A stretch of DNA of 58,388 nt from Elusimicrobiota bacterium (GCA_026388155.1 JAPLKI010000017.1:1-58388), one strand, 5' to 3'; positions 41,652-57,434 are shown, counted from the first letter of the stretch. Made by a program: numbers and translations. The notes: generated by a model from the letters alone, not told the origin.

Positions 41652-41930
41652 ATGAAAACTATTTCTGCCAATCACGATCTTCTGGGTATTGTCGCAATCG
41701 GGAGCATTATCGGCAATCTGGTTCAGGCCAATGAAATGACCACCGTCAAAATAGAGCGTAATAAACTGATCGCCATGTATCACAAACTGGTGGAGCATTA
41801 TAAAATGCTCTATCGTGAGTATGAGGCCTTTCGGCAGGTTAATGAGCATCTTCGTGTGGAGGTTGTCGCACTGCGCGCCGAAAATAGCAATCTGCTCGGT
41901 AAGATTGCGGCAAAGGAGCCAGCCAAATGA
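41652..41930 (+). CDS. Small coiled-coil protein, first gene of a toxin-antitoxin operon
   Basis: 92 residues, strong Shine-Dalgarno sequence (AGGAGG). Residues about 30-88 form a continuous heptad-rich helix (KLVEHYKMLYREYEAF, HLRVEVVALRAENSNLLGKI). The N-terminal 25 residues are mildly hydrophobic (LLGIVAIGSIIGNLVQ). It overlaps the XRE gene by ATGA. I do not recognise a family. It may be an oligomerisation partner or regulator of the antitoxin, making this a three-component module. Confidence 0.7.
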   Translation: MKTISANHDLLGIVAIGSIIGNLVQANEMTTVKIERNKLIAMYHKLVEHYKMLYREYEAFRQVNEHLRVEVVALRAENSNLLGKIAAKEPAK

Positions 41931-42421
41931 CCGTGCCGATCACTCAGCTATCAACGGGCGAAAGACGCTTGTTCGATAATTCCAAACGAATTATCGGGGT
42001 ACTCAACCAAGCATTCAACCCGCAGATTCTTCAAGGTTTGAAGCAGATTATTACCTTTCCTGCCGCTGGCGTGATCAACCGCAGGGGCAGAATTTATATT
42101 CAAACCAAAGCAAGTAAAGGCGGCGCTCTGGCCTGGTCCATAGGCCAAAAGATTCGGACCGCGCGTGAGAGAAAGAATTTGACCCAAGAAGACTTGGCAA
42201 AGCTGACTGGGATTGCTCGGGCAAATATCGCCCGTTTTGAAACCGGTCGCCACGCGCCCAAGATAGCAACTGTCCAGCGCGTGGCCCGATCACTTGATTT
42301 AAAAACAACAGATCTATTAAAAATGCCGGGGCACGAAAAAACAAGGGAAGATTCAGATTGGATCAACGCTGACATGGACGAGTGGTCCAAATCGCTTGAG
42401 AGGGAGGACCGCAAGTCATGA
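41927..42421 (+). CDS. XRE-family antitoxin/regulator with N-terminal extension
   Basis: 164 residues. A Cro/cI helix-turn-helix lies at about 74-130: IGQKIRTARERKNLTQEDLA, then GIARANIARFETGRHAPKIA. The first 65 residues (TGERRLFDNSKRIIGVLNQA) are of unknown type. The acidic, Trp-containing tail DWINADMDEWSKSLERED resembles the toxin-binding tails of MazE/PemI-like antitoxins. Overlaps of four bases with both neighbours indicate one translationally coupled operon. Confidence 0.85.
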   Translation: MTVPITQLSTGERRLFDNSKRIIGVLNQAFNPQILQGLKQIITFPAAGVINRRGRIYIQTKASKGGALAWSIGQKIRTARERKNLTQEDLAKLTGIARANIARFETGRHAPKIATVQRVARSLDLKTTDLLKMPGHEKTREDSDWINADMDEWSKSLEREDRKS

Positions 42422-42777
42422 GCAAGGTTCTTACCGGTGAAGTTTACAACGCAAACCTTGAACCCGTCCGTGGATCTGAGCAGGGCAAAACACGGCCAAT
42501 TGTCGTCTTTCAGAATCCGGACCTGGCACGGTTCACCTCCACGGCACTTTGTATCCCTTTAACATCCAATATTAAACGCCTCGGCCTGCCCGGCACATGT
42601 CTTATTAGACAGGGAGACGGGGGGCTTTCGCGGGACAGCGTGGCTCTGGCCTTTCAGATGCGGGCGCTTGACGCCGCCCGCCTCGGTCCGCACATAGGGA
42701 AGCTATCTTCGTCAACAGTGGAAGCCTTGACCGATGCTGTCCTTAACGCACTGGGAATCAGCGTAGAGCAACCGTAA
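42418..42777 (+). CDS. MazF/PemK-type endoribonuclease toxin
   Basis: 119 residues with the PemK/MazF fold: TGEVYNANLEPVRGSEQGKT at the N-terminus, RPIVVFQNP, a central CIPLTSNI (the conserved Thr-Ser pair) and DSVALAFQMRALDAARL. The GSEQGK-x-RP loop contains the conserved Arg used in RNA cleavage. It is third in the operon, directly behind the XRE antitoxin. Family activity is sequence-specific mRNA cleavage in the cytoplasm. Confidence 0.9.
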   Translation: MSKVLTGEVYNANLEPVRGSEQGKTRPIVVFQNPDLARFTSTALCIPLTSNIKRLGLPGTCLIRQGDGGLSRDSVALAFQMRALDAARLGPHIGKLSSSTVEALTDAVLNALGISVEQP

Positions 42778-43114: not shown

Positions 43115-43999
43115 TTACAAATCTGGCAACAGGGCGGCAAGGTCCTCTATAAACGGTTCCAGGTATTTGTCGTAAAGGTCCCGTTCCCGCTTATAGGCTT
43201 CGTTCTCTCTAAGGCGCAGCAGGCCTAAAGCGGTCCGGGCGGAAAAATCAGTTTTACGGATTTCGGCGGCTTTATTTATGTAAGGGCGGGCGGCGCGGGC
43301 GGCCAAATGCTCTTTGGCGTCCGTCCAGTCTACTTCGCTCATTCTGACTACTGTCGCGAAAATATCCCAGGCGTGATAGCGCCCTAAATCTCTTGCCTCA
43401 TCGTTTTTCCTGTCATTAAATGCGTGGAACTTAAGGATCAGGAAATTGAAAGCCGACGGGATAAAGAGGATTTTGTTTTTCAGAGTGAGCGAAGGTTCAA
43501 GGCGTCCGGGGTCTATGAACAGCTTTCCGAATTCTATTCCCTCTGATTCATCCGTTAAGTAGGCATGAATACCCGCCGCGCCCTTGGGTTTGATCCGCAG
43601 CCCATGAACGGACACCAGGGACAGATCTTCATCGCGCGGCGGGGCGGCAAGAAGGTCTATTTTAATTGTTCGTTCCTGACCATAAAGCATGATTTTCTTC
43701 GCAAATTGGAAGTTTTTGGCTTCCGGCAAAACATTGTAGCCCAAATGGCCAATCACCCGCCTGAGACTTTCAATTTTTCCGGCGTCGATGATAAGCCGGG
43801 AAGACAGAAATATATCCAGGTCCGCGGTTGAGCGCGCCGGGAGGTCGAAAGGGTAACGCGGATTGCGGACGCTCAGGAATTTCTGGCGCAGATAGAGGCA
43901 CATGCCGCCGCCAAGGATGATTGGAATGTTTTCCGTGTCCAGTTCCCTGGCCAGTTCAGCCAGATGGTAGACCAGCGGATCGTTATCACCAGCGGTCAT
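43115..43999 (-). CDS. AbiEii-type nucleotidyltransferase (toxin candidate)
   Basis: 294 residues with the polymerase-beta-type nucleotidyltransferase core: IILGGGMCLYLRQ (GG motif), ARSTADLDIFLSS (the metal-binding D-x-D), then KIDLLAAPP with the third carboxylate. The C-terminal half is helical, with KFHAFNDRKNDEARDLGRYH, a stretch common in AbiEii/DUF1814 proteins. It overlaps the gene upstream by ATGA, which fits the AbiEi-AbiEii arrangement of type IV toxin-antitoxin/abortive-infection systems. Confidence 0.8.
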   Translation of the reverse strand: MTAGDNDPLVYHLAELARELDTENIPIILGGGMCLYLRQKFLSVRNPRYPFDLPARSTADLDIFLSSRLIIDAGKIESLRRVIGHLGYNVLPEAKNFQFAKKIMLYGQERTIKIDLLAAPPRDEDLSLVSVHGLRIKPKGAAGIHAYLTDESEGIEFGKLFIDPGRLEPSLTLKNKILFIPSAFNFLILKFHAFNDRKNDEARDLGRYHAWDIFATVVRMSEVDWTDAKEHLAARAARPYINKAAEIRKTDFSARTALGLLRLRENEAYKRERDLYDKYLEPFIEDLAALLPDL

Positions 44000-45063
44000 T
44001 TTGACCTCCCTAATATAACCTCGCGCACCCCGGCCGCAATTTCACGTTCTCTTTTGTCCAGCCTGGAAAGTTCCAGCCAGCATTGCACCGGCGAGGCCCA
44101 GCGCAAGCCGTTGTTTTCCCTGGTGTCGAAATAAGGGAACTCGGCATCAGTCTTTTGCGCCAACACATTATAAAACCGGTCATCCTGGTATTTCAACAGG
44201 GAAGCGTCATCCGTGACGTATAGTTTTAACACCGAGGCGTCGGCCATGACGGCGTAACGCCGCGCAGAGCTCTCCCCTGAGATAACCCACCGGCCTCCCT
44301 TTAAAGCGCCGGCCAGTTCATCCGTCATCTTTAAATCGGTTTGGCCGGTTATCCCCGGGATCTTCAACTTTACCGAACCCAAAATTCTCGGCGGACGGTA
44401 ATTTTCACCGAGTTTTTGCAAGAGCTTCTCCGGCTGAAGCAGGGATATCCCGTCAGCCCCCTTCTCGATAATCAATTCTTCCTCAAGACCTTTGAGGACT
44501 TTGGATACTGCGGACATGGAAAGGCCACCACCAAGATTATTTATACCGGAAAAAACCTCATTAACAGATTGGAATCGGCGGGCGGCAGCGAGAAAGAGTC
44601 TTCCCACCAGTGAACTACTGCCGGCAAAAATGTTTTTAATCGGCTGGGATTCGGGGAAGCTGTTTTTCCGGTCCAAACGCATGGCTATCATATCCGGGAC
44701 CTGTATAAGATAGTTGCCGTTCAAATCAATACCGTTTACCTTCTCACTGTTAAGCAATTCCACAATACTGGGGGACAGATACGGGACAATGAGCAAAAAG
44801 TTTGAACCGGCGGAAACAGCCATTTTTTTGATGCGCCAGAGGGTTTCCTCTATTATCTTTGGGGCAGTCCTGTTTTTGATTTCCGCAAAGAAAACAACAT
44901 TGCGGTTTTGCAAGCCTAAAGTTACTCTGACATCCGGCCTATAGCCCAAGCCGACCACTGGCTGCTCCTCTATCGAAACGATCTGAAGAGGGGCATAGAG
45001 ACTTTTTTGGCTTTCAATCCTGGCTAAAATTTCTTTTCCAGTGAGTAGGGGCGAAAATGTCAT
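43996..45063 (-). CDS. AbiEi-type antitoxin/transcription regulator with nuclease-like N-terminal domain
   Basis: 355 residues. The N-terminal 110 have GYRPDVRVTLG followed by VVFFAEIKNR, the D-(x)n-ExK pattern of the PD-(D/E)XK fold. The centre (about 165-225) has LGGGLSMSAVSKVLKGLEEE and a following wing, resembling a winged helix. The C-terminal region has GRWVISGESSARRYAVMADA, similar to AbiEi antitoxins. The promoter has two TCCTATATAGGA palindromes, likely its own operators. It is co-translated with the nucleotidyltransferase. Confidence 0.72.
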   Translation of the reverse strand: MTFSPLLTGKEILARIESQKSLYAPLQIVSIEEQPVVGLGYRPDVRVTLGLQNRNVVFFAEIKNRTAPKIIEETLWRIKKMAVSAGSNFLLIVPYLSPSIVELLNSEKVNGIDLNGNYLIQVPDMIAMRLDRKNSFPESQPIKNIFAGSSSLVGRLFLAAARRFQSVNEVFSGINNLGGGLSMSAVSKVLKGLEEELIIEKGADGISLLQPEKLLQKLGENYRPPRILGSVKLKIPGITGQTDLKMTDELAGALKGGRWVISGESSARRYAVMADASVLKLYVTDDASLLKYQDDRFYNVLAQKTDAEFPYFDTRENNGLRWASPVQCWLELSRLDKREREIAAGVREVILGRSK

Positions 45064-45467: not shown

Positions 45468-46520
45468 TTAAAAAATTTCCAGCTCCAGTAAATCCCGGGT
45501 AAGTTTATTCGCGTCGGCGTGCGAAGTGTAGGCGCAAAAACTCATTACGGACTGCTTTATATCCCGCACATGAATTCGTCCGCGTTTAAAAAGCTCGCGC
45601 AGTTTCCGGTTCCGGGACCGGAAGCGGAAAATATTGCGCCGCCTGACCCGCACACGCTCCGGAAACACTGTATACCCCACCCAGTCAATTCCGCATTTCA
45701 CAGGGGAAACCGTCCGTTTTTCCGGGTGAACGCGCAATCTCAATTTTTCAGCCAAGAACGCCTCAATTCGGGAAAGGACAAACCATAACTCTTTTTTATC
45801 CGGTCCGAAAAACAGAAAATCGTCCATATAGCGCAGGTATGGCTTCCAACGCAGTTCCTGTTTGACAAAATAATCCAGCTCAGTCAGATAGATATTGGAA
45901 AACAACTGCGAAGTAAGGTTACCTATTGGAATGCCGGTAGGCCGCTGAAGCGCGAACAGGTCGTCATTTGGGAAATAACTCCTGAAACGCTTGTCTTCGG
46001 AGGAACCAAGTATCTCGGCGATTAAGGCCAGCACCCGTTTATCGGCTATCCGGCGGCCCAGCGTATTAAGCATAATAGCGTGGTCCACGCTATAAAAAAA
46101 CTTGGAAATATCCGCCTTAAGAACATAACCGGTTGAAAAACGGCGCGCAAGCGCGCTGCACCGCGCCAGAGCCGCAAAAGTTCCCTTGCCTTTGCGGCAG
46201 GCAAAGCTGTCTGGGATGAAACGGGCTTCAAATATCGGCTCAATAATGTTGCAAAGCGCATGATGTACCACCCTGTCACAAAAGCGAGCCGCCTTTACCT
46301 GGCGGCGCTTCGGGTCCCTGACCTCAAATTCTCTGTAAGGCCCGTGACGATATGTTCCGTCCAGCAGTTCCGCCTGAAGTTTAAAAATTTCCCGCTCTCT
46401 GTTATAGGCGAATCCGGCGCAGTCCAGACGCAGGCTTTTCCCCTTGGCCGCCTTGCGGAAGGCCTCATACATATTTTCAAAGGAACACACTTGCTCATAA
46501 AGTAATTTATAGGTTTTCAT
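45468..46520 (-). CDS. DGR-type reverse transcriptase
   Basis: 350 residues, with GGGAG six bases before ATG 46520. RT motifs in order: RFCDRVVHHALCNIIEPIFE, FIPDSFACRKGKGTFAAL, VLKADISKFFYSVDH (first catalytic Asp, about 137), GIPIGNLTSQLFSNIYL (about 197-212), YLRYMDDFLFF (catalytic YMDD, 231-234) and HPEKRTVSPVKCGIDWVGY. Motif 4 reads IGNLTSQ, the [ILV]GxxxSQ form diagnostic of diversity-generating retroelement RTs, not the QGxxxSP of group II introns. There is no maturase or endonuclease domain. It copies the TR RNA with adenine-specific errors. Confidence 0.93.
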   Translation of the reverse strand: MKTYKLLYEQVCSFENMYEAFRKAAKGKSLRLDCAGFAYNREREIFKLQAELLDGTYRHGPYREFEVRDPKRRQVKAARFCDRVVHHALCNIIEPIFEARFIPDSFACRKGKGTFAALARCSALARRFSTGYVLKADISKFFYSVDHAIMLNTLGRRIADKRVLALIAEILGSSEDKRFRSYFPNDDLFALQRPTGIPIGNLTSQLFSNIYLTELDYFVKQELRWKPYLRYMDDFLFFGPDKKELWFVLSRIEAFLAEKLRLRVHPEKRTVSPVKCGIDWVGYTVFPERVRVRRRNIFRFRSRNRKLRELFKRGRIHVRDIKQSVMSFCAYTSHADANKLTRDLLELEIF

Positions 46521-46582
46521 CCTCCACTCCCATGGGCCTTTTGGCCCTTACGCGGTCAACTGAAATCTTGTAAAATAATCGC

Positions 46583-46828
46583 ATGGCAGAACTTAGTTGG
46601 GACTGACTTGCCACAAAAGACGATATAAACCGGATATTGGACGCGCTAAACAAGCTGGCCGTTATAATAAAGGATGATCGCAATGCATTCGCCTGGGAAC
46701 TCAAAGAATGGAAGAAAAGAATTGGAGGGAAAAAGTTATGGCGGATAATCAATGGGAAAACCAGCCAGCCACAAAAGGCGACTTGCAAGCTGTTAAAGGC
46801 GACTTGCAGGCCGTTAAAACCGAACTGA
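46583..46828 (+). pseudogene. Small coiled-coil gene with an in-frame TGA
   Basis: From ATG 46583 the frame reads MAELSWD, then TGA (46604-46606), then continues with LATKDDINRILDALNKLAVI and a helical, charged segment (FAWELKEWKKRI). The part after the stop resembles the ATKGDLQAVK start of the neighbouring coiled-coil protein. It is therefore probably a decayed related gene. TGA ends many other genes here, so readthrough is unlikely. The 3' end overlaps the start of the next gene. Confidence 0.55.
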
Positions 46829-47118
46829 AAACTAATATGGACCTTTTGGACCAGAAAGTGAATACGCTGGACCAGAAAGTAAACACACTGGGTGTTGAAC
46901 TGGCTAAAACGCATTTGCATATAGACCGGGCAGAAAACAATATGATGACAGCGCTCAGAGGTTTCAAAAGCGAAATCCTGTCCGCGATAGACAAATTCGC
47001 GGGCGAAGCCAGGAATTATAGAAGAAGGGATCTGGAACGCGGCCATATGCTGATGGAGCAACACGATAAGCTGCAAAACCACGAAAGCCGTATTACCCTG
47101 CTGGAAACCCCAAAATAA
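46738..47118 (+). CDS. Coiled-coil protein encoded inside the DGR, opposite strand
   Basis: ATG 46738 is chosen because GGAGGG lies eight bases upstream. 126 residues. The N-terminal half contains internal repeats: KGDLQAVKGDLQAVK, and DQKVNTLDQKVNTLG at exact seven-residue period, giving a parallel coiled coil. The C-terminal half is helical and basic (GEARNYRRRDLERGHMLMEQ). It has no signal peptide or membrane segment. It sits between RT and TR on the strand opposite to all DGR genes. Function unknown; it could be a cargo gene or an accessory. Confidence 0.7.
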   Translation: MADNQWENQPATKGDLQAVKGDLQAVKTELKTNMDLLDQKVNTLDQKVNTLGVELAKTHLHIDRAENNMMTALRGFKSEILSAIDKFAGEARNYRRRDLERGHMLMEQHDKLQNHESRITLLETPK

Positions 47119-47288
47119 TAATCCAAATCGCCCGGTTCGGCCGTTCGTCCGCCTGAGGCGGACTACCAGGCCTCCCCGGGGCGCTTCGTTTTTCTCATCT
47201 CCCCAAACTTGGGGAGGTGAAAGGAGCAGGTCTGCCGTAGGGAGGGTTGCGCGGAACGCGCCTCCGTAAAGACGCGTCATCTGGCACA

Positions 47289-47317
47289 AGCGCTCGCGAT
47301 AAAACAATACGAGCGCT
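47289..47317 (-). terminator. Hairpin just downstream of the TR
   Basis: AGCGCTCG and CGAGCGCT form an 8-bp stem with a 13-nt loop, 11 bp beyond the last TR codon on the minus strand. It may define the 3' end of the TR RNA or act in its structure. A classical U-run is missing. Confidence 0.5.
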
Positions 47318-47327
47318 CCCCTCTGCC

Positions 47328-47435
47328 GCAGCGGAACCCGATGTTGTCGTTCGAGTTGGACGGGGCGTTGTTCGCGTTGAAGGCGAACACCCCGTCGTTC
47401 GCGCCGTTGTTCCAGTTGCCACCCCGGATCACCGC
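47328..47435 (-). repeat. DGR template repeat (TR)
   Basis: Read on the minus strand, the core translates as VIRGGNWNNGANDG, VFAFNANNAPSN and SNDNIGFRC. This is the standard C-type-lectin variable-loop pattern of DGR templates. Ten codons are AAC (plus two GAC), the codon that adenine mutagenesis turns into up to 15 residues without creating stops. The frame has no start codon and an upstream TAA, so it is a template, not a gene. It sits between avd and RT, a canonical position. The exact ends cannot be set without a VR. Confidence 0.9.
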
Positions 47436-47664
47436 TTTCTTTCGGACCTGCCCCTCTGTCGCACCCCGCGCCGCACTGCACAGCGCGCGGGGCGGATTAA
47501 CCGCCGGGCTTTATAAGGTGGCGCCCGGTGCTCCACAAGGAGGGCTCTGCCCTCCGTTAACTCGTCGCTTGCTTCCTGCGCTTCGCTTGGTCGCTGCGCT
47601 GAACCTCCCGAAGCAGAAATCTCCTAAACAACAAGGAAAACTAATTCTCCATACTCTCTTACTT

Positions 47665-48018
47665 TTATTTCAGCAGCACAGCGCCGCCAAAACGTTTATT
47701 CCAGCCGCCCAGCAGGCGGCCAGCCTCGTCGACCATTTTTGAACCATATTCATACTGCTTGATGGCGATATATCTCATTTCAAAGGACAGGCGCAGCCAG
47801 ATCCGCAGTTTTTCAAGGGCCAGAACGGCTTTTTTTAATGGCTCGGTTTTATCAACGCTTTCATTGGCCTCGATAACCGCCTCAAGAAAGTCCAGCGCCG
47901 CATTCTCCGTTTTCTGCGCCAGCACAAACTTCTCCGATTTCGGGAATTTGGCCGTCACCAGATGAATCCATTTTAAAAGCTCATACGCTTTTTGGAAAAC
48001 TATCAGGTCTTTGAGCAT
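47665..48018 (-). CDS. avd: DGR accessory variability determinant Avd
   Basis: 117 residues, all-helical, with the Avd/four-helix-bundle pattern: LIVFQKAYELLKWIHLVTAK, FPKSEKFVLAQKTENAALDF, ESVDKTEPLKKAVLALEKL, and RIWLRLSFEMRYIAIKQYEY followed by GSKMVDEAGRLLGGW. Avd forms a basic pentameric barrel that binds RT and the TR RNA and is required for mutagenic homing in characterised DGRs. It overlaps the MutS-like gene by 16 bases and lies about 230 bp upstream of TR. Confidence 0.9.
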   Translation of the reverse strand: MLKDLIVFQKAYELLKWIHLVTAKFPKSEKFVLAQKTENAALDFLEAVIEANESVDKTEPLKKAVLALEKLRIWLRLSFEMRYIAIKQYEYGSKMVDEAGRLLGGWNKRFGGAVLLK

Positions 48019-48320
48019 TTTATTATTTCCGAAACTTCCCTTTTAACTCCGCCGCCATCCAGCTTTATCTGGCTGCAAACCGCGACTGAAAAGCCCGCTC
48101 TCACAAGTTTGCCTATATACTTATCCAGCCCGCTTTTGGGAAAACCGCAAAAATACAGCGGCGCGTCGGCGTTTCCTTCAACACGCAGTTTAAGGCCCAG
48201 CGCGTCACTTACTTTTTTAGCGTCTTCAAACATTATCCTGTAGAAAATCCCGGCCTGAAAAAGCAAGATCTCGTCCGCGTGTTTTTCCTTGGTTGTTTTA
48301 TATTCTTCGCTAATGCTCAT
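48003..48320 (-). CDS. Stand-alone MutS domain-I-like protein (Msl), DGR accessory
   Basis: 105 residues that match only the N-terminal mismatch-recognition domain of MutS: EILLFQAGIFYRIMFEDAKK, LYFCGFPKSGLDKYIGKLVR, AGFSVAVCSQI and KREVSEII. No lever, clamp or ATPase domains follow. The mismatch-wedging F-x-E motif of MutS (GDFYELF) reads GIFYRIM, so Phe is kept and Glu is Arg. MutS-like accessory genes have been reported in DGR surveys. Here it is the first gene of the msl-avd-TR-RT series. Confidence 0.85.
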   Translation of the reverse strand: MSISEEYKTTKEKHADEILLFQAGIFYRIMFEDAKKVSDALGLKLRVEGNADAPLYFCGFPKSGLDKYIGKLVRAGFSVAVCSQIKLDGGGVKREVSEIIKCSKT

Positions 48321-48338: not shown

Positions 48339-48367
48339 CCCTCACACCAACCCGGTTGGTGTGAGGG
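48339..48367. promoter_or_regulatory. Perfect hairpin in the leader of the DGR operon
   Basis: CCCTCACACCAAC-CCG-G arms give at least a 12-bp perfect stem with a 3-5-nt loop, 19 bp before the msl start codon on the minus strand. It could be a terminator of upstream transcription or a leader structure; I cannot decide. Confidence 0.55.
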
Positions 48368-48497: not shown

Positions 48498-48595
48498 GGC
48501 CGTCTGATGGGCATAGTCCCGCCCTTTTGGGCTGAACATTATAACCCAAAAAAGCGGGGCATAACCCCCGATACGGCATCTGCGCAAGCATTGAC
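48498..48595 (+). repeat. Dispersed palindromic repeat, copy C with internal hairpin
   Basis: GGCCGTCTGATGGGCATAG at the left and ACGGCATCTGCGCAAGCATT at the right frame a roughly 50-bp palindrome built from TCCCGCCC, TTTTGGG, CCCAAAA and GCGGGG. The outer parts match copy D at 57850; the palindrome is unique to this copy. Confidence 0.75.
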
Positions 48596-48624
48596 AAAAG
48601 CCTGAAAAAATGCCAAAAAAATCT

Positions 48625-48714
<90 letters not shown>

Positions 48715-48770
48715 ATGAATTTTTAACGATAAGTTGTCCATATATTAACATGCACAGAAAGCACGAAAAC

Positions 48771-49715
48771 CTACTTATTCGCCAGCATTATGTCAACGCG
48801 CTGCTGTGAGAAAGTGTCCGCAAAACCCTCGCAGGAAATTATATTTTCCGCCGCCATTAACCCGGTTTTAAGATATTTCCTTATCAACTCCGCCTGCAAG
48901 TCCGCCAGCTCCTTTGTTTGCGCGTACACACTCACTTTCATCGGCAGGCCGTAATAGCGCCTTTTGACAAGGTCGGTCGCGGCGTCCAGCATGGCTTCCC
49001 CGTCCGGTGTTTCTATGTTTTTAAGCGCTTTGTCAGACCCGAAAACCACAGCCGAATCCAGGCCGATGCCGGTACCGCCTTCCTTCTGAAAAACCATAGC
49101 GGTGTACTTTATACGCTCGCCTATCGCCGTTTTGGATGAACCATCCCCGTCCACGAACACATATACGGGAGCGTAGCTGTGCCCGGCCTTCAGCCAGTCA
49201 TGCCGGTCGTTTTCACCGCTCCAGTTTATAGTTTCAGGCGGAAAGCCCGCGCCGCCGTACTTTTGAAAGATTTTACCCTCCTCGTCGGTTACGGACAGCG
49301 TCCATTGTATTTCTTTAGAGGTGCGGCCGCTGTCTGCGCGGCCGAACAACTCTTTGAATTTTTTCCCGGGATAAAACGTGATAACCGGCATATCGCCGAA
49401 CCCCGTGCGCCAGGGCTTTATAACGCGGAAACTGGAAATTGTTTCAGGATAGTTTCTGGAATAGCCGGCAAAATCGCCGGACTCAAAAAGAAACAGTTCC
49501 GTATCCGGCTCCAGTGATTTTTCAATACTTTCAAGTTCATCGGTTTTAATTTCAAGCGGCGGTTTTTTTGTGCGCATTTCCGAGTCGGTTTCGGATTTTA
49601 TGACCACTTCCCGGGGAATTGAATCATAAGCCGCAGTGGAGGCGTTTACTTCCGCGCCCGCGGCCAGCGGCGGGGCCGCCAGGATAAGGATAAATACACC
49701 GGTAAATTTCAACAT
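48771..49715 (-). CDS. Secreted OmpA-C-like protein at the end of the TonB/ExbBD operon
   Basis: 314 residues with a signal peptide (LKFTGVFILILAAPPLAAGA). A central beta-rich region (VITFYPGKKFKELFG, IQWTLSVTDEEGKIFQ, HSYAPVYVFVDGDGS) is followed by a C-terminal part, VSVYAQTKELADLQAELIRK, with ISCEGFADTF and QQRVDIMLANK. This has the layout of an OmpA peptidoglycan-binding domain with weak conservation. It is the last gene after tonB (39-bp gap) and is likely periplasmic. The name is tentative. Confidence 0.6.
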   Translation of the reverse strand: MLKFTGVFILILAAPPLAAGAEVNASTAAYDSIPREVVIKSETDSEMRTKKPPLEIKTDELESIEKSLEPDTELFLFESGDFAGYSRNYPETISSFRVIKPWRTGFGDMPVITFYPGKKFKELFGRADSGRTSKEIQWTLSVTDEEGKIFQKYGGAGFPPETINWSGENDRHDWLKAGHSYAPVYVFVDGDGSSKTAIGERIKYTAMVFQKEGGTGIGLDSAVVFGSDKALKNIETPDGEAMLDAATDLVKRRYYGLPMKVSVYAQTKELADLQAELIRKYLKTGLMAAENIISCEGFADTFSQQRVDIMLANK

Positions 49716-49754
49716 AAATAAGACTCCTTTATTTAGGGCTCGTGGTCACAAGCC

Positions 49755-50840
49755 CTAATTCACGAATCTGAAAGTTATAACTCCCCACTGGTTTGACGCC
49801 GGGCCGTCCAACGGCTCAAATGCCCATTGTTTTATGGCTTCAACGGCCAGCCTGTCCAGGGCGCCGTAGCCGGAACTGCTCTCCACCGTTACGGTATCAA
49901 GTACGCGGCCTAAGTTGTCAACATAAAATTTAAGCGCCACAACGGCTTCAAGCAGGCCGCGCTCACGCGCCCAGGCGGGGAAGGGCGGAGCGTAATACCT
50001 GAGTATTTTACGCTTTGAAAGCGGACCGGTAATTTTAATTTTCTTTTTTCCCTCATCCGCCGTTTTCAGCCCCCCCGCCCTGTCCAACAGGGCGGAAGCC
50101 GAAATGACAGGCTGAGCGCGGCGGGGGTTTATGGCCGCCTCTTTGGCCTGCCTGGCCTCCGGCAGGCGCTCAGGCGCGGCGGGAATTGCCCGCGCGGCCT
50201 CATGGGGCGCGATTATTGAACCGGCTCTGCCTGAGAGAGCCTGCGGAGCGGCCGCGGCGGACGCGGCCCGCCTGATGGCGATGTCAAGTTCCGCCATGTC
50301 GCGAGGCCGTACCGCCTCGCGCGATTCGTCGTCAAATTTAAGATTTTCAGGCAGTTTAGGCGCTTTTTTCAGCCCCACCTCTTCCAGCTCAATTTTTGGA
50401 GCGAGCGCCGCCTGTCCGCGTTCCGGCGCCATGACAAGCGCGGCGTCCTTAATAGCGGAAGCGGCCCGCCTGGAACCAGCCATGTCCAGCTTTTCTTCCA
50501 CTTTCAGCTTGCCCTCCCGTTCCGAAAGTTTTTGCGGAAGCTCAAAAATCCTGCGGCGGCTTTCCGGCGTTTTTATATCCAGGGCGGGCATTTCCGGCGC
50601 GGCCGGCCGGGTAATTTGCGGCAGGGCGAGTTTGAGGAATTTAAAAATTTTGTTCCGCGCCGGGCCCGCCTGCGCGCGGGCGGCTTTTTCCTGCATTATA
50701 AGGTCGACATTGCCGATTACTATCTTCCTGGTTTCAGGGCGCAAAAGGATGAATTTCAGGCACAAAAAAAACAGAAGCCCGTGGAAAGCCACGGAGCCGG
50801 CCAGGGAAAACCAGACCAATTTATCAGACTGCGGGTGCAT
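49755..50840 (-). CDS. TonB family energy transducer
   Basis: 361 residues. An N-terminal membrane anchor (LVWFSLAGSVAFHGLLFFLC) is followed by about 240 residues rich in Pro, Ala, Lys and Glu, then a TonB C-terminal domain: YYAPPFPAWARERGLLEAVV, ALKFYVDNLGRVLDTVTVES and ALDRLAVEAIKQWAFEPLDG. It transmits inner-membrane proton-motive force, harvested by ExbB/ExbD, to outer-membrane receptors. It lies after two ExbD genes and an ExbB gene. Confidence 0.9.
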   Translation of the reverse strand: MHPQSDKLVWFSLAGSVAFHGLLFFLCLKFILLRPETRKIVIGNVDLIMQEKAARAQAGPARNKIFKFLKLALPQITRPAAPEMPALDIKTPESRRRIFELPQKLSEREGKLKVEEKLDMAGSRRAASAIKDAALVMAPERGQAALAPKIELEEVGLKKAPKLPENLKFDDESREAVRPRDMAELDIAIRRAASAAAAPQALSGRAGSIIAPHEAARAIPAAPERLPEARQAKEAAINPRRAQPVISASALLDRAGGLKTADEGKKKIKITGPLSKRKILRYYAPPFPAWARERGLLEAVVALKFYVDNLGRVLDTVTVESSSGYGALDRLAVEAIKQWAFEPLDGPASNQWGVITFRFVN

Positions 50841-50851
50841 AATTTATTTTA

Positions 50852-50946
50852 CTGCTTGGCGGCTAGGCGGCGAGGCAGCTTGGCAGCCATAAGATCTGTA
50901 AACCTTAAAAAACTGTCCAGCTTTCCAGCTGCCTCGCCGCCCGGCC
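50852..50946. repeat. Quasi-palindromic octamer repeat (GGCGGCTA type)
   Basis: Eight-base units GGCGGCTA, GGCGGCGA, GGCAGCTT, GGCAGCCA on the left and the inverse (CTGTCCAGCTTTCCAGCTGC, CTCGCCGCC) on the right, around a central ATCTGTAAACCTTAAAAA. It fills the exbD-tonB gap. Confidence 0.8.
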
Positions 50947-50975
50947 GATTTTTAAATCCTCATTAACGGAATTCA

Positions 50976-51395
50976 CTATTTACCCTTCTTCAGCTGCTCG
51001 GTGGCGATGGTAATGTTTACGGCGCCGGCGGCTTTGGCTTTAGCCATCACATCGGTAAGAATGCCGAAGCCGGCATTCTTATCGGCCTTTATAACCACAA
51101 CCTTAAGGTCGCTGGCGCCAAGCGCCTTATCGATCCCCTTAAAAAGCTCTTCTTTCGTTTTAAAAACCACTTCATTTACGGAATACTTTTCACCGTCGGA
51201 GATGGAAATTATTATTTTCTCCTTTTCCTCCCCTTCCTGCGTGCGGGCGGCGGGCAAATTAACCTTGAACGCCGGTTCGGAGAGAAGCGGAGCCGTAACC
51301 ATAAAAATAATAACCAGCACCAGGCAGACATCCACCAGGGGAGTGATATTGATGCCGCTCGTTATCTCAGTGTTGTCATCAGTTTTGAAAGACAT
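50976..51395 (-). CDS. ExbD/TolR family protein (second)
   Basis: 139 residues. A single membrane helix carries the proton-path Asp: TPLVDVCLVLVIIFMVTAPLL. The periplasmic part (VNLPAARTQEGEEKEKIIIS, then LKVVVIKADKNAGFGILTDV) is typical. The ending, AAGAVNITIATEQLKKGK, matches ExbD/TolR. It forms the stator with ExbB. Confidence 0.92.
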   Translation of the reverse strand: MSFKTDDNTEITSGINITPLVDVCLVLVIIFMVTAPLLSEPAFKVNLPAARTQEGEEKEKIIISISDGEKYSVNEVVFKTKEELFKGIDKALGASDLKVVVIKADKNAGFGILTDVMAKAKAAGAVNITIATEQLKKGK

Positions 51396-51404
51396 ATATC
51401 CTTG

Positions 51405-51490
51405 CCAGGCCGCTAGGCGGCTGGGCAGCTGGGCGGCTTTTTAAGGTTTGCAGACCTTCTGGCTGCCTAGCCGTCCAGCTGTCCAGCGGG
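51405..51490. repeat. Quasi-palindromic octamer repeat (GGCGGCTA type)
   Basis: Units GGCCGCTA, GGCGGCTG, GGCAGCTG, GGCGGCTT, then a centre with TTAAGGTTTGCAGACC and inverted GGCTGCCTAGCCGTCCAGCT. Same family and core as 50852-50946. Confidence 0.8.
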
Positions 51491-51500
51491 CGCAGCGCCC

Positions 51501-51929
51501 TCAGTTCCTCATCAGCGCCATTTTGACGGCTCCAGCCTGTCTGGCCTCGTCGAGAAGCCCGACCACTTCCCCGACCTTATTGGCTTCGTCGGCTTTAACG
51601 ATAACAAACTTGTCTTTGCTGGCGGACAGGGCGTTTAAAATCACTCCGCCGAAGTGCTCGGCGTCGGTTTGCGCGCCGTTAACGCTCAAAACGCCATCTT
51701 TTGTAAGTTTAACCTGCACGCTGTCGGAAAGCGACACCTTGCCTATCAGGGCTATCCGGGCGCCGGCTTTTTTTGACTGCAGAACCCTGATGCCCGCCTG
51801 CATGGCGAAAGGAGCGACGGCCATAAAAATAATGACCAGCACCAGACAGACATCCACCATAGGCGTAAGGTTGATTTCGGTTATGGGGCCGTCGGAATTA
51901 TTTGAAGATATGGACATGTTTTCTGCCAT
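51501..51929 (-). CDS. ExbD/TolR family protein (first)
   Basis: 142 residues with TEINLTPMVDVCLVLVIIFM as the membrane helix including the conserved Asp, then a periplasmic domain (VSLSDSVQVKLTKDGVLSVN, FVIVKADEANKVGEVVGLLD). Two in-frame ATGs (51929, 51917) are possible starts; the repeat upstream runs up to the first. The two ExbD proteins are clearly different, suggesting a heteromeric stator. Confidence 0.92.
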   Translation of the reverse strand: MAENMSISSNNSDGPITEINLTPMVDVCLVLVIIFMAVAPFAMQAGIRVLQSKKAGARIALIGKVSLSDSVQVKLTKDGVLSVNGAQTDAEHFGGVILNALSASKDKFVIVKADEANKVGEVVGLLDEARQAGAVKMALMRN

Positions 51930-52003
51930 ATGCCATACGCTTTAGGCTATAGGCTTTAAGGACTTCCTTAGAGCTTATGGCTTACGGCTTATGGCTTAAA
52001 GCT
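51930..52003. repeat. Heptamer repeat (CTTATGG type)
   Basis: CTTATGG CTTACGG CTTATGG CTTAAAG on one side and inverted TACGCTTTAGGCTATAGGCTTTA on the other, between exbB and the first exbD. Confidence 0.75.
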
Positions 52004-52004
52004 T

Positions 52005-52622
52005 TCACTGGTTCCCTATCATTATCACCAGGCGCGTGGAAAAAATTTCAAGCTCGCTCGCCACCACTTTAAGCCTGCGGGTGAAATAATTGTAAACGAT
52101 AACGGCAGGTATAGCCACCGCAAGGCCCGCCGCCGTGGCAACCAGGGCCTCGGCTATGCCGCGCGCCACAACCGTGGGGCCTCCAACACCCGAAAGCGCC
52201 AAATCCTGAAAAGCTTTTATGATGCCGACCACCGTGCCGAAAAGCCCGATAAACGGGGCGATATTGCCCATGGTGCCCAGCACTCCGAGGTTCTTTTCAA
52301 GCTCCAGGCGCTCCTCCTGGCGTTTTGTGGCCAGCAGTTCCTCAAGTTCTTTTTTGCGCATTGCCCTGTTCAACAGGGCATAATGCACGATTCTGGCCTG
52401 GGGCGAATCAATTCTGGAGGTGTATTCAAGGGCCTTGTCCACATTGCCCTTTTCAAGTATACCGTTGACATGCGCCATTAAATCCTCGGCTTTTTTCGGG
52501 CGCGACTTGCGGAAAACCCACCAGCGCTCAAAAGCGAAGGTAAAAGACAAAAGCGAGCAAAAAAACAAAATTACCAGCGTAAAGCTGCCCTTAAAAACCT
52601 CCAGAAAATTAATATGCGCCAT
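52005..52622 (-). CDS. ExbB/TolQ/MotA-type proton channel protein
   Basis: 205 residues, three membrane segments: [20 protein letters not shown] near the N-terminus, [20 protein letters not shown] in the middle and [20 protein letters not shown] near the C-terminus. A cytoplasmic helical stretch ([20 protein letters not shown]) lies between the first and second. The central GLFGTVVGI motif and the Thr/Ala-rich third helix are diagnostic. Confidence 0.93.
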
Positions 52623-52629
52623 ATGGTTC

Positions 52630-52720
52630 TCCTTTTACTTACCCGAATCCTTGAAGGATTCGCCCGAAGGGCGAAAGTTGCGGTCAACTGCAACTTTCGG
52701 GCTTAGGCTGTTTTATCCTG
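52630..52720. repeat. Nested inverted repeats between the TPR gene and exbB
   Basis: CGAATCCTTGAAGGATTCG, GCCCGAAGGGC and CGAAAGTTGC...GCAACTTTCG hairpins in a row. They could act as an attenuator or terminator in the operon. Confidence 0.6.
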
Positions 52721-52761
52721 CCTTTTACCTTTTACCGGTTATTGGTTACTTTCCCTTTGGA

Positions 52762-55700
52762 CTATTGTCCGGCCTCTGTGGACGAAGACTTGGCCACGGC
52801 CGGGCGCTTCTTTGCGGCCTTTACCGGTTTTACAGTCTTTTTCTTTTTTTTAACCGCCGGAGAAGCGGTCTGGACCGGCGCCGCTTCTTCTCCGGCCTTT
52901 GGCGTTGTCTCATCCGCGCCGGCCCCCGCTGCGGGCGCCGTGGTTGTAACTGTCAGAGGGGAACCGGCGCCTTCCGCCGGATTTGTCACGGACGACACGA
53001 CATCGTCGGCGTCGGAAGCCTGGGGGATGGCGCTCATTTTAAGCAGGGACCGCGCTTTTTCGGCCGCCGCTTTGGCCGTTTCCGGGTCGGCGGAGTTTTT
53101 GGATATATCGTCATAAACTCTGGCCGCCTCCGGGTAATTTTTTTCAGCCTCGTAAATTTCGCCGATTTTTATCAGGCCCTGCAGCCGCCATGGGCTTGAG
53201 TAGGGTTTTTGCAAAACCAGCCTGCCCCAGTAGTCCAGCGCCTCCTCCGGCTGTTTATTGTCGCTGTAAAGCTCGCCCATGCGGTAAAGCGCTTCCAGTG
53301 AATCCTCCCTGCCGGACGCCTGCCCGTAAATCTCCGTAAGAGTCTTCACGGCGGCGGAAACATCCCCCCTGTCTTTTTGCAGCTTGAAAATTTCCCACAA
53401 GGCGCTTAAAGCGTCGCCGGAGCTGCCCGCAAGATTGTAATATCTGCGGTAAGTTTCCTCCGCCGGGCCGCTTAAGCCGGTGTTTTTGTAGCACAGCGCA
53501 AGGTTAAAAAGCGCGGGTTGTGTATATTCGCTCGCGGGGTAAAGCTCGGCGAGCTTCGCGTACGCCTTTGAAGCCGGCTCGTAATTTTTAAGGTTGTAAT
53601 ACGCGCTGCCAAGCCGGAAAAGCGCCACCGGATGCTCTTTAGCGTCCGGGTAATTCACGGCAAAACGCTCAAAAACCTCCGCCGCGTTTTGCATGTCTCC
53701 GGTCTGAAAATACGCCTCGCCAAGATAAAACTGGGCGTCTTTTATTGAAGGATGGTCGACATAATCCACGCTGAATTTTTTAAGGTTTTCGGCGGAGAGC
53801 GCGTAATCCTTCTTTTCAAAAAGCCGCCTGCCGAGCCTGAACAGCGCCTCCCCCGAAGTCCGGTCTTTGGGCTCGCGCGCGGCCAGAGCGCCAAGCTCGG
53901 CCTTAAAATCAAGCCCGGCCGTCCGGTCAAAAGCGGCTTCCATCAGGTCAAAAGCATCCGCCGCCTCGGGAACGTCCGGCCATAGCGTGACCACGGTTTT
54001 TAACTGTTCCACCGCTTTCGCGTCTTCTTTCCGGTTGTAGTCAATTTGGGCCAGGCGCAGGTAGGCGAGCGCCAGCTGCTTGTTTTTCGGATATCTGGCG
54101 ATAATCCCGTTATAGGCCGTCACGGCTTCGGCATATTTCTGCGCCCTGAACCAGGTATCGGCGCTTTGCAGCTCCGCGGTCTCGGTTTCAGGCGTCCCCG
54201 GATATTTTCTGGCAAGCTTGTCCCAGGTTTCAACGGCCTGGGTGTAATAATGCAGGCGGTAAAGCGCAAGGCCGGCCTTATAAAGCGCGGCGGGAGCGTA
54301 TTTGCTTGAGGCGTTATCGGAGGCGAAAGCGTCGTAAAGGCCGAAGGCTTTTTTAAAATCCTTGGCATTGAAATAGCTGTCGGCGACCGACAGCGCGTCC
54401 GTGCCGGAGAGCGCCCCGGCATCCGGGAAAGCGGCTCTGGCGGTTTTGAGTTTTTCCCTGGCTTTGGCCGCGCCCGAGCTGTCGCCGGACAGCGCATAGC
54501 ACCACACCAGGCCTTCCTGGGCGTAAAGCAAAGACACCTTGTCGGGGGAAAGCCGGGCCGCTGTGTTATAAATATTCTTCGCGTCGTCAAAAAGGTTCCG
54601 CGCCAGATAGGCCTCGGCGACATACAGCAGGCTCAGCGCCCGCCATTTGGACCCGGCAGGCGGAGGGTTTTTAAAAATAGACTGCACCTGGTAAGAGGTC
54701 AGGATACTGTTGTAATCGCCCCTGGCGTATTCCGTGCGGAGGATCATAAACAGCGCCTGCTCGGCGACCTCGCTTGAAGGCGCAAGGTCAACCGCGCTCT
54801 GGAAATTCCCCAGCGCCTCCTGCGGTTTTTTCAGCGCCAGGTTTGCGGCGCCCATCAGGTAATAAGCGTTTTTAGCGAGCGCATGCGCGGGATAAAGGCC
54901 GATAAAATTCCCCAGGGTCTGCAGGGCCCCCTGATAATCGCCCAGTAGGTACCGGCACCACGCGAGTTTATAAAAACTTGCAGGCGCCGCCGAAGAGGTG
55001 GGGTAGCCGGCGGTAATTTTTGCGTAAGCGGATAGGGCGTCGCCGGTCTGTTTGTTTGCGAGATAAGATTCGCCGATAAAATACCACGAGTAGGGCGCGA
55101 AATAATTAAACGGGCTTTTGTCTGTAACAGCCCGGAAATTCAGCCGGGCGTTCAGGTAATCTTTCCTGTTAAGCTGCGAAACGCCTATGCGGAAGACCGC
55201 CGCCGTTTTCAGCTTTGAGCCGGGATAGTTTTTAATGAAGTCCTGGTACTTGCTTATCGCGCCGTCAAAATCCCGCGCATAAAAAAAAGACTCGCATATA
55301 AGGAACTCCGCCTCCTCTATGGAATCAAATCCGGGGTAATTCTTGAGAAGTTTCCCGAAAACAGACGCCGCCATATCGGTTCTGCCCTCGTAAAGATAGG
55401 CCTTCCCCAGGAAAAACCGCGCCTGGGGAGTGTCAAGCCGTGAAAAAAGCTTCTGGCTGGCCGGGTAATTTTTCCGGCTCAGCTCTATTATGCCGCCGGC
55501 AAACACCAAAGCCGGGTCGGAAGCGTAGGCCAGATAGATCTCGCCAAAGTGAAAAAATATGTTTTGCGCGTTCCGGCGGCGGTTCAGGGCGATATTTGAG
55601 TAAACCTGTCCAAGCAGGCTTTCCGGCGCTATATAGCTTTTGGGGTAGTCGCTTTCCACTTTGGAAAATTCTTTAACGGCCTGTTCCCAGTCGCCCATGT

Positions 55701-56151
55701 TGTAATATGCCTCGCCTGCGCGATACAGGGCCGAAGCTTCAAGGCCGCTGCCGGAGTACCTGCCGGCCACCGAACCGTATATTTCCGCGGCTGAGTTGAA
55801 TTCGGCCATGGAACCCGGCTTTGCGCCGGCCGGCCCGGCGGCGGGACCCCTTTTTGAAATTTTTTCCTGGTGAAGCAGCTCCAGCGCTTTGGACATGTGC
55901 GCTTCCCCTGTCATAAACAGGGCGTCCGCTGCCCTTTGGCTTTTCGGGTATTTTTTTATGAATTGCCGGAATGCCTCTATTACGGCCGCGCGGTCGGCGG
56001 AAGTCTGGTAAAGCGCGGAAATGGCCTGGAAAGCCGACTCATCCGCGCTAAGCTGCGGCGCCGCAAGCTGGGCGCGCGCCGGAAGGGCCGTTGCGGCAAG
56101 CAGAGCGGCCAGCAACACCGCTTTTCTGGAATTATATGGCATTTTTTTCAT
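52762..56151 (-). CDS. Large periplasmic TPR protein of the Tol/Ton operon
   Basis: 1129 residues with a signal peptide (KAVLLAALLAATALPARAQ). It consists almost entirely of tetratricopeptide repeats, about 25-30, with classic units such as ASALYRAGEAYYNMGDWEQA, FLICESFFYARDFDGAISKY and LGEAYFQTGDMQNAAEVFER, each followed by a YP-rich turn as in YbgF/CpoB and BamD. A Lys/Ala/Pro-rich tail (KKKKKTVKPVKAAKKRPA) ends it. It is the first gene of the operon leading to ExbB, two ExbD, TonB and the OmpA-like protein. It probably scaffolds envelope complexes. Confidence 0.88.
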   Translation of the reverse strand: MKKMPYNSRKAVLLAALLAATALPARAQLAAPQLSADESAFQAISALYQTSADRAAVIEAFRQFIKKYPKSQRAADALFMTGEAHMSKALELLHQEKISKRGPAAGPAGAKPGSMAEFNSAAEIYGSVAGRYSGSGLEASALYRAGEAYYNMGDWEQAVKEFSKVESDYPKSYIAPESLLGQVYSNIALNRRRNAQNIFFHFGEIYLAYASDPALVFAGGIIELSRKNYPASQKLFSRLDTPQARFFLGKAYLYEGRTDMAASVFGKLLKNYPGFDSIEEAEFLICESFFYARDFDGAISKYQDFIKNYPGSKLKTAAVFRIGVSQLNRKDYLNARLNFRAVTDKSPFNYFAPYSWYFIGESYLANKQTGDALSAYAKITAGYPTSSAAPASFYKLAWCRYLLGDYQGALQTLGNFIGLYPAHALAKNAYYLMGAANLALKKPQEALGNFQSAVDLAPSSEVAEQALFMILRTEYARGDYNSILTSYQVQSIFKNPPPAGSKWRALSLLYVAEAYLARNLFDDAKNIYNTAARLSPDKVSLLYAQEGLVWCYALSGDSSGAAKAREKLKTARAAFPDAGALSGTDALSVADSYFNAKDFKKAFGLYDAFASDNASSKYAPAALYKAGLALYRLHYYTQAVETWDKLARKYPGTPETETAELQSADTWFRAQKYAEAVTAYNGIIARYPKNKQLALAYLRLAQIDYNRKEDAKAVEQLKTVVTLWPDVPEAADAFDLMEAAFDRTAGLDFKAELGALAAREPKDRTSGEALFRLGRRLFEKKDYALSAENLKKFSVDYVDHPSIKDAQFYLGEAYFQTGDMQNAAEVFERFAVNYPDAKEHPVALFRLGSAYYNLKNYEPASKAYAKLAELYPASEYTQPALFNLALCYKNTGLSGPAEETYRRYYNLAGSSGDALSALWEIFKLQKDRGDVSAAVKTLTEIYGQASGREDSLEALYRMGELYSDNKQPEEALDYWGRLVLQKPYSSPWRLQGLIKIGEIYEAEKNYPEAARVYDDISKNSADPETAKAAAEKARSLLKMSAIPQASDADDVVSSVTNPAEGAGSPLTVTTTAPAAGAGADETTPKAGEEAAPVQTASPAVKKKKKTVKPVKAAKKRPAVAKSSSTEAGQ

Positions 56152-56297: not shown

Positions 56298-57434
56298 TTA
56301 AGCAAAATACTTCTTTTTAATCCATTCGCTAAACCAGATGTCCGAGAACACCGCAACGCCGTCCTCCTTCTCAAGCAGACCTTTAGCCGTCAAAAGAGCC
56401 TCTGATTTCTGCACAGAGGACGCCGACCCCAGGCGGTAGGAACTGATAAACCCCATTGAGAACAAGTCGGTTCCACCGGATACGGCCATAGCCTGCAGCA
56501 GTTTCCGCTGTGAAAGCGCCAGCGAATCCCACATTGAAAGAAACATCGGAGACAGCCCCTGCGTAATCCGGCCGACAGCTTCGGCGACTGCGGAGCGCGG
56601 CACGTTTTTTATGTCCGCGCAGCCGCTCCATATTTCGTGGCATAAATGCAGCGTATAATACGGAACCACCCGCGAAACTCTTATTATCTCGTCCGTGGTC
56701 CCGGCGTCTATGGTCTTGCCCGAAGCCCCGAACTTGCCGGAAATGAAAGAGGCAAGCTCGCCCGGGGGGATTTTGCCCAGGAAAATAATTTTCCCCATTT
56801 TATAAAAAGGCTTGTTTTTATTTAACACCATGTCGGACATTATATGCTGCTTTGAACCGGCAAATAAGTAGCCCACATCCTTCTGGCGCTGGAAAACGGC
56901 TCTCATCGCCTTTTCAAGCGCTTCCCCTCCCACATTCCTTATTTCCTGGAATTCGTCAAAAAACACCGCGAATTTCTTCCTTTTCCTCTCCGCTGTTTTT
57001 TGCGGGATCTCCAGAAGATCCCTGATAAGCAGGGAAAGCTCCGGTTTCTTCGGGGCCGCCTCTATCCCCACCGATATTTCCCCTTCGGCGCTTATAGTGA
57101 CGCTCGGCCGCAGCGAAGGGATAACTTCCCTGATAAAACCGATAATGTTTTCGGTTTTTGTTTCCGCCGCCCTCGCGACAGCCCTGGCGTAATGCGCCGC
57201 GAACTGCTCCACAGTGGAAACGTCATACATATCCATATAAGCGGTTATAACGCCGCGTTCTTTAAGCGCGGCCAGCGTGTTGAACGCCAGCGAAGTTTTC
57301 CCATACCGCCTTGGAGAAATAAGAAACACCCTCGCCCCGCTGTAAAGCTCATCCACAAGCTCTTTAAGCTCCGTTGTCCTGTCGGTGAAATCCGCGCCTG
57401 TAGCGACTTGTCCGTAATAAAAAGGGTTAAGCAT
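56298..57434 (-). CDS. Archaeal-type AAA ATPase (ATPase_2/DUF234-like family)
   Basis: 378 residues. Walker A is LISPRRYGKTSLAFNTL and Walker B is KFAVFFDEFQEIR. The N-terminal NPFYYGQVATGADFTDRTTE is the typical entry of this group. An arginine- and His-containing sensor region (FLGKIPPGELASFISGKFG) and a C-terminal winged-helix-like domain (LSQRKLLQAMAVSGGTDL, ALLTAKGLLEKEDGVAVF) follow. Members are found singly in mobile or accessory DNA, and their role is unknown. The upstream region has interlocking ATACC/GGTAT inverted repeats near 57465-57490. Confidence 0.85.
   Translation of the reverse strand: MLNPFYYGQVATGADFTDRTTELKELVDELYSGARVFLISPRRYGKTSLAFNTLAALKERGVITAYMDMYDVSTVEQFAAHYARAVARAAETKTENIIGFIREVIPSLRPSVTISAEGEISVGIEAAPKKPELSLLIRDLLEIPQKTAERKRKKFAVFFDEFQEIRNVGGEALEKAMRAVFQRQKDVGYLFAGSKQHIMSDMVLNKNKPFYKMGKIIFLGKIPPGELASFISGKFGASGKTIDAGTTDEIIRVSRVVPYYTLHLCHEIWSGCADIKNVPRSAVAEAVGRITQGLSPMFLSMWDSLALSQRKLLQAMAVSGGTDLFSMGFISSYRLGSASSVQKSEALLTAKGLLEKEDGVAVFSDIWFSEWIKKKYFA

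Follow-up and report, generated by a model that had tools for sequence, protein, structure and literature searches.

A diversity-generating retroelement cassette without a visible target in an Elusimicrobiota genome

The diversity-generating retroelement (DGR) of Bordetella phage BPP-1 is arranged as mtd-avd-TR-brt, with a spacer between the template repeat (TR) and the reverse transcriptase (RT) gene that is the equivalent of the structured RNA described below. The BPP-1 system has been reconstructed in laboratory E. coli with a reporter VR (PMC12875486). Targets remote from the machinery are known in DGRs. HRDC and MSL, the latter corresponding to PF01624, are given as known DGR accessory proteins in PMC10053308, which cites Wu et al. 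2018. Degenerate DGR loci with MITE-like repeats have been described in Thiohalocapsa PB-PSB1 (PMC10907252).

The locus analysed here lies in a stretch of 58,388 nucleotides from an Elusimicrobiota bacterium (GCA_026388155.1, JAPLKI010000017.1), called the window, which is one entire contig of a 3.36-Mb MAG (25 contigs, 96.9% complete). Along the minus strand, msl (48320-48003), avd (48018-47665), the TR (about 47435-47322) and the only RT gene found by a search of this genome (46520-45468) follow each other leftward, and a coiled-coil gene runs rightward between the TR and RT. On sequence grounds, RT, Avd and TR are identified as DGR machinery and Msl as an accessory. The initial annotation had called the locus a complete DGR, msl-avd-TR-RT; the machinery is borne out, but not the completeness, since the window holds neither VR nor target and searches of the 96.9%-complete assembly found none. 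The dispersed repeat, the structured RNA and the exact place of the coiled-coil gene described below go beyond that annotation. What makes this real but ordinary DGR machinery interesting is that the target is absent, that the RNA is well supported and that the antisense gene recurs. The features are as follows.

45468-46520, minus strand: DGR RT, 350 aa, motif 4 IGNLTSQ, active site YMDD, intact over its full length
46538-46576, plus strand: promoter-like element CTTTNGGNCCTTACG-N16-TGTARAAT, common to other genes of the coiled-coil family
46738-47118, plus strand: coiled-coil gene (ORF 46708-47118; likely ATG at 46738 behind GGAGGG)
47130-47340, minus strand: structured 3' part of the template RNA, intact by fold, covariation and model R1
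about 47322-47435, minus strand: TR, A-rich at AAC codons, aligned to the TRs of loci L031 and L034
47457-47652, minus strand: hairpin-rich, MITE-like dispersed repeat of about 200 bp, inserted between avd and TR
47665-48018, minus strand: avd, accessory variability determinant, 117 aa (NF033474, Pfam bAvd, PHROG 3206)
48003-48320, minus strand: msl, stand-alone MutS domain I, 105 aa (PF01624, MutS_I, 5.7e-21)
48591-48741, minus strand: non-coding stretch with an (AGGC)22 array, homologous to the post-target stretch of loci L034 and L136
48771-49715, minus strand: last gene of an exbBD-tonB operon, at the place of the DGR target in relatives, marking the native flank

The motif 4 and active site first read in the RT are both present, and IGNLTSQ has the G-x-x-x-SQ form of the DGR clade. 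Matched against profiles, the RT reaches 1.2e-117 with PHROG 1423. An origin of the RT in a group II intron, a retron or a defence system would find some favour in its match to the group II model TIGR04416, but this match is weak (140.7 bits; cut-off 300), and by far the best solved structure is 8ub7 (“Reverse transcriptase”, 8e-57), the Bordetella BPP-1 DGR RT, followed by the group II RT 6ar1 at 1.7e-25. A tree of 35 RTs places that of the window inside a clade of six Elusimicrobiota sequences (support 100/100) and not with group II introns or retrons, and this clade includes members with clean adenine-specific TR/VR pairs. Those pairs in relatives, together with the Avd, TR and RNA of the window, also speak against a non-DGR RT, a reading already contradicted and of next to no probability. 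Relatives of the RT are 66-86% identical to it, and its dN/dS is 0.11 (against L031).

The helical protein that had been thought Avd-like is Avd: it scores 107 bits against NF033474 (5.5e-31), above the curated NCBI cut-off of 80, and 5e-23 against Pfam bAvd, and it matches PHROG 3206, “Avd protein of DGR”. It is 90% identical to the Avd of L031, with a dN/dS of 0.20-0.22. The MutS-domain-I protein at the head of the cassette was likewise read correctly. Its gene overlaps avd by 16 bp, and both its position and the overlap are the same in L034 and L138; the protein aligns to MutS and has no other MutS domains, and its dN/dS is 0.12. The combination with Msl had been considered unusual, which does not hold, as the literature already counts Msl (PF01624) among the DGR accessories (PMC10053308, with reference to Wu et al. 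2018). Within the F-x-E motif with which MutS reads mismatches, the window Msl (GIFYRIM) keeps the Phe but not the Glu, and in the five Msl copies found (GIFYRIM, GIFFRIM, GTFYKIM, GIFHYLL) the Phe is kept in all and the Glu in none. Because the Glu is lost, what is known of MutS predicts a protein that binds nucleic acid with little mismatch preference. Searches for Msl relatives in viral contigs found none. Upstream of msl, a “hairpin leader” had been proposed. The perfect palindrome at 48339-48367 is real, but we rejected it as a part of the DGR system, since it is missing in L034, where msl occupies the same place.

An AAC-rich template had also been noted between avd and RT. For the adenine-rich TR found there, near the RT, the reading in the frame of a C-type-lectin VR is VIRGGNWNNGANDGVFAFNANNAPSNSNDNIGFRCGR. 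Aligned over 117 nt, the TRs of L031 and L034 differ from it at 3 A positions and at 8-10 others, a likeness far above chance. A scan that demanded mismatches at adenines only returned a TR/VR pair in most of the loci collected with the window RT, including the Elusimicrobiota loci L031 (mismatches at 19 of 29 adenines and 5 elsewhere, over 117 nt) and L034 (18 of 26 adenines and 2 elsewhere, over 117 nt).

The RNA 3' of the TR is supported by both fold and covariation. Its 53 consensus pairs in 6 relatives are paired in 296 of 308 cells, with compensatory changes in 22 pairs, on an alignment that was built without structure; slid-partner controls gave 44-54% paired and 2-7 compensatory. With the covariance model R1, which represents the 3' half of this type of RNA, the window scores 113.8 bits, and its fold has a z-score of -3.9. 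By analogy, this RNA would bind RT-Avd. Rfam gave no match, and a sub-threshold PreQ1 hit was discarded as chance. Besides, R1 matched weakly directly behind the TRs of other DGRs, and R2, a model retrained on these matches, found 14 loci outside its training set. The R2 match lies about 70-125 nt 3' of the TR on the same strand in all of those loci whose TR the scan had located (11 of 11); L089 has a TR-like sequence upstream, and L102 and L057 have none and may be matched by chance. The loci come from Elusimicrobiota, Thermodesulfobacteriota, Saganbacteria, Myxococcota, Chloroflexota, Bacteroidota and other phyla. In an alignment of 27 sequences fitted to the model, 13 of which also trained it, 87% of cells pair, against 60% when shuffled and 37-44% when slid. 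An R2-like structure was seen in L150, L148, L040, L152, L155, L033, L061, L151, L147, L141, L149, L049, L090 and L035, and it occurs in DGRs of both gene orders, with the TR before or after the RT.

It turned out that the window holds no VR, and the 3.36-Mb genome (96.9% complete) gave none by DNA search with E up to 10, by two A-to-N patterns allowing up to 3 other mismatches, or by protein search; a C-type-lectin family search was negative as well, except for one gene on contig C14. The DNA method can find VRs, because blastn with the window TR recovers those of L031 (6e-19) and L034 (9e-17). Absence of any adenine-specific pair from the complete genome had been named at the outset as grounds against a DGR; such a pair is indeed absent from this assembly, itself not quite complete. 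DNA matches to the TR flank at no fewer than 20 places in the genome were rejected as VRs, being copies of the dispersed repeat. The gene on C14 (53583-55301; L153:7584-9302) encodes 573 aa; its protein has NVGIGT-type repeats and ends in a C-type-lectin domain that resembles those of DGR targets. It was rejected as the VR of the window TR, with 33 of 88 non-A positions differing; perhaps it is an old target, and it is the sole related, if distant, target-like gene in the assembled part of the genome.

The cassette either has parted from its target or has a target that was not assembled. A fully working DGR could have its target elsewhere in the chromosome, in the missing few per cent, with diverse VR reads breaking the assembly. 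The machinery genes and RNA are intact and constrained and completeness stands at 96.9%, which agree with such an arrangement; but the VR adjoins the cassette in all relatives of the clade where it is visible (L031, L034 and L136), and no truncated target stands at a contig end among the C-type-lectin family matches. We hold this a serious possibility, at somewhat less than even chances.

The upstream junction bears on the same question. In the relatives, the target with its VR lies upstream of msl/avd (target, msl, avd, TR, RT in L034, with the RT broken by a deletion; target, msl, coiled-coil gene, avd, TR, RT in L136, with msl interrupted; target, coiled-coil gene, avd, TR, RT in L031), and the window has the last gene of the operon (exbB-exbD-exbD-tonB) there instead. 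From 48772 to 56085 the window shows 75-85% nucleotide identity to G122, a genome of the same genus, and the likeness ends at the stop codon of the last operon gene; G122 has no DGR after the operon, and the window RT is absent from both same-genus genomes. The non-coding stretch at 48591-48741 matches L034 (blastn, 74% over 74 bp) and also L136, and on this homology appears to be a remnant of the lost target neighbourhood. It contains an (AGGC)22.5 array of 90 bp (48625-48714), near the junction, which could be a misassembly point. If the assembly were chimaeric, the operon would have been joined to the DGR at this tetranucleotide array, and the true upstream gene would be a target with VR. 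The array does occupy the position that corresponds to the post-target repeat in L034 and L136, but past it (up to about 48745) the likeness to the post-target stretch of L136 continues, so the operon was not joined at the array; moreover, the target would then be elsewhere in the assembly, where no VR was found. A chimaera is improbable.

Two insertions divide the cassette, the dispersed repeat between avd and TR and the antisense coiled-coil gene before RT, and both lie outside the TR, the RNA fold and the reading frames. The repeat shares 93% identity over 197 bp with one copy (contig C16) and 75-87% with many more, and is absent from the avd/TR position in L031 and L034. At least 15 further copies (loci L002-L015) occur in the genome, some as closely spaced pairs. 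With two insertions and no VR in the assembled genome, the DGR might be inactive and decaying, its target lost, the avd-TR and TR-RT junctions broken and the whole drifting. Decay is seen in relatives (the RT deletion of L034, the interrupted msl of L136 and an RT remnant in G127), and the degenerate PB-PSB1 loci with MITE-like repeats (PMC10907252) offer a parallel. Against it, RT, Avd, Msl and RNA are without frameshift, stop or broken helix, and the insertions spare all of these parts. The chances of decay come close to even.

Taken together, the locus is very probably a genuine DGR machinery cassette separated from its target, a statement made on a MAG of 25 contigs and 96.9% completeness, in which a hypervariable VR is what assemblers drop. 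Purifying selection on RT, Avd and Msl, along with an intact RNA that covaries strongly, means that the cassette was at work in the recent past; a low dN/dS is a record of past function and not of present function. On the model of BPP-1, msl-avd-TR-RT would be transcribed leftward, the folded RNA behind the TR would bind RT-Avd and prime cDNA synthesis into the TR, adenines would be misread during this synthesis, and the cDNA would replace the VR, which lies at the 3' end of a target gene of C-type-lectin (FGE-sulfatase-like) type. The probable role of Msl is that of an accessory that binds nucleic acid. The target may have been lost or left behind as the cassette came behind the exbBD-tonB operon, so that the cassette would now either be an orphan or act in trans on a target outside the assembly.

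The coiled-coil gene noted on the opposite strand is confirmed, and it recurs beside DGRs of the phylum. It sits exactly between the 3' RNA of the TR and the RT start codon, antisense to RT; in L031, where RNA end and RT start directly adjoin, this position is empty. Homologues stand beside DGR RTs in G114 (two loci), G144, G197, G232 and G150. With a profile built from five members, we found the family in 55 of 341 Elusimicrobiota genomes, with no genome holding more than 13 copies, which means that it is not confined to DGRs. Within 5 kb of DGR RT loci of the phylum it occurs at 7 of 26 (0.18 expected), a count to be read with the facts that the five profile rows come from DGR neighbours and that several of the seven loci were known beforehand; at these seven loci, all 8 genes are antisense to RT, at differing positions. 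The 7 of 26 pattern would also arise if genes had inserted into shared variable islands. The gene also occurs next to target-like genes that have no RT close by (G136) and next to a target accompanied by an RT remnant (G127), and no relatives were found in viral contigs. For the promoter-like element, there is one match in the window and none in 100 shuffles; four distinct coiled-coil loci match it exactly, and others have looser matches upstream. A second short coiled-coil-like frame (ATKDDINRILDALNK, 46584-46740, plus strand) with an in-frame TGA directly precedes the intact gene and is probably a broken copy. In the DGR locus L195 (G150:C180), a single RT, Avd and a coiled-coil gene are accompanied by three successive target-like genes.

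In L137 (1130-1704), a ParE-type toxin and an addiction-module antitoxin lie antisense in the gap between TR RNA and RT start. As this pair occupies the gap that holds the coiled-coil gene in the window, the gap evidently tolerates insertion with RNA and RT frame unharmed. The coiled-coil gene is likelier a passenger than a partner. That, with its own conserved promoter-like element, it represents a new DGR-associated family of Elusimicrobiota, either a DGR-homing passenger or a regulating accessory acting, e.g., through antisense transcription over the template RNA, is a tentative and rather doubtful proposal.

A few kb beyond the DGR, genes for an HTH protein and a PemK/MazF-type toxin form a pair at 41927-42777 (plus strand), so that this segment may be a variable island. 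Two overlapping genes without Pfam match follow at 43115-45063 (minus strand), with repeated CCTATATAGGAAA sites upstream; by eye, they resemble a two-gene AbiE-type system. Elsewhere in the window, an ATPase gene (AAA_14; 56298-57434, minus strand) is closely similar to L034:4976-6186, which lies directly downstream of the RT of L034.

Machinery without a target provides a natural test of whether a DGR acts in trans on remote genes, and of how cassettes and targets part and rejoin in evolution; a distant target-like gene that lacks machinery is present in this genome too. The RNA covariance model is a handle for finding TRs without a visible VR, where DGR detection is usually weakest, and the antisense gene that recurs offers a fresh clue to further members of DGR loci in Elusimicrobiota.

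In comparison with known systems, the cassette shares with the BPP-1 DGR the order avd-TR-RT, the DGR RT and Avd families, a structured RNA between TR and RT, and a TR for a C-type-lectin VR with a GC-rich 3' end. Unlike BPP-1, it is chromosomal, belongs to Elusimicrobiota, contains msl, and has neither target nor VR beside it, but does have the repeat of about 200 bp between avd and TR and the antisense coiled-coil gene between RNA and RT. The closest relatives are the Elusimicrobiota loci L034 (X2_MetaBAT.4) and L031 (bin N2.88), with 66-90% identity in RT, Avd and Msl and the same TR type and RNA. L034 shares the order msl-avd-TR-RT and L031 the antisense coiled-coil gene, but both have a target with VR directly upstream, and the RT of L034 is broken and L031 lacks msl. 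The DGRs with Msl of Wu et al. 2018, as they are presented in PMC10053308, also have a stand-alone MutS domain I gene beside the RT; in the window, msl and avd are found together and overlapping. Like the loci of Thiohalocapsa PB-PSB1 (PMC10907252), the cassette misses a key part and has MITE-like repeats inside, but there the machinery was lost beside the targets, while here the target was lost beside the machinery.
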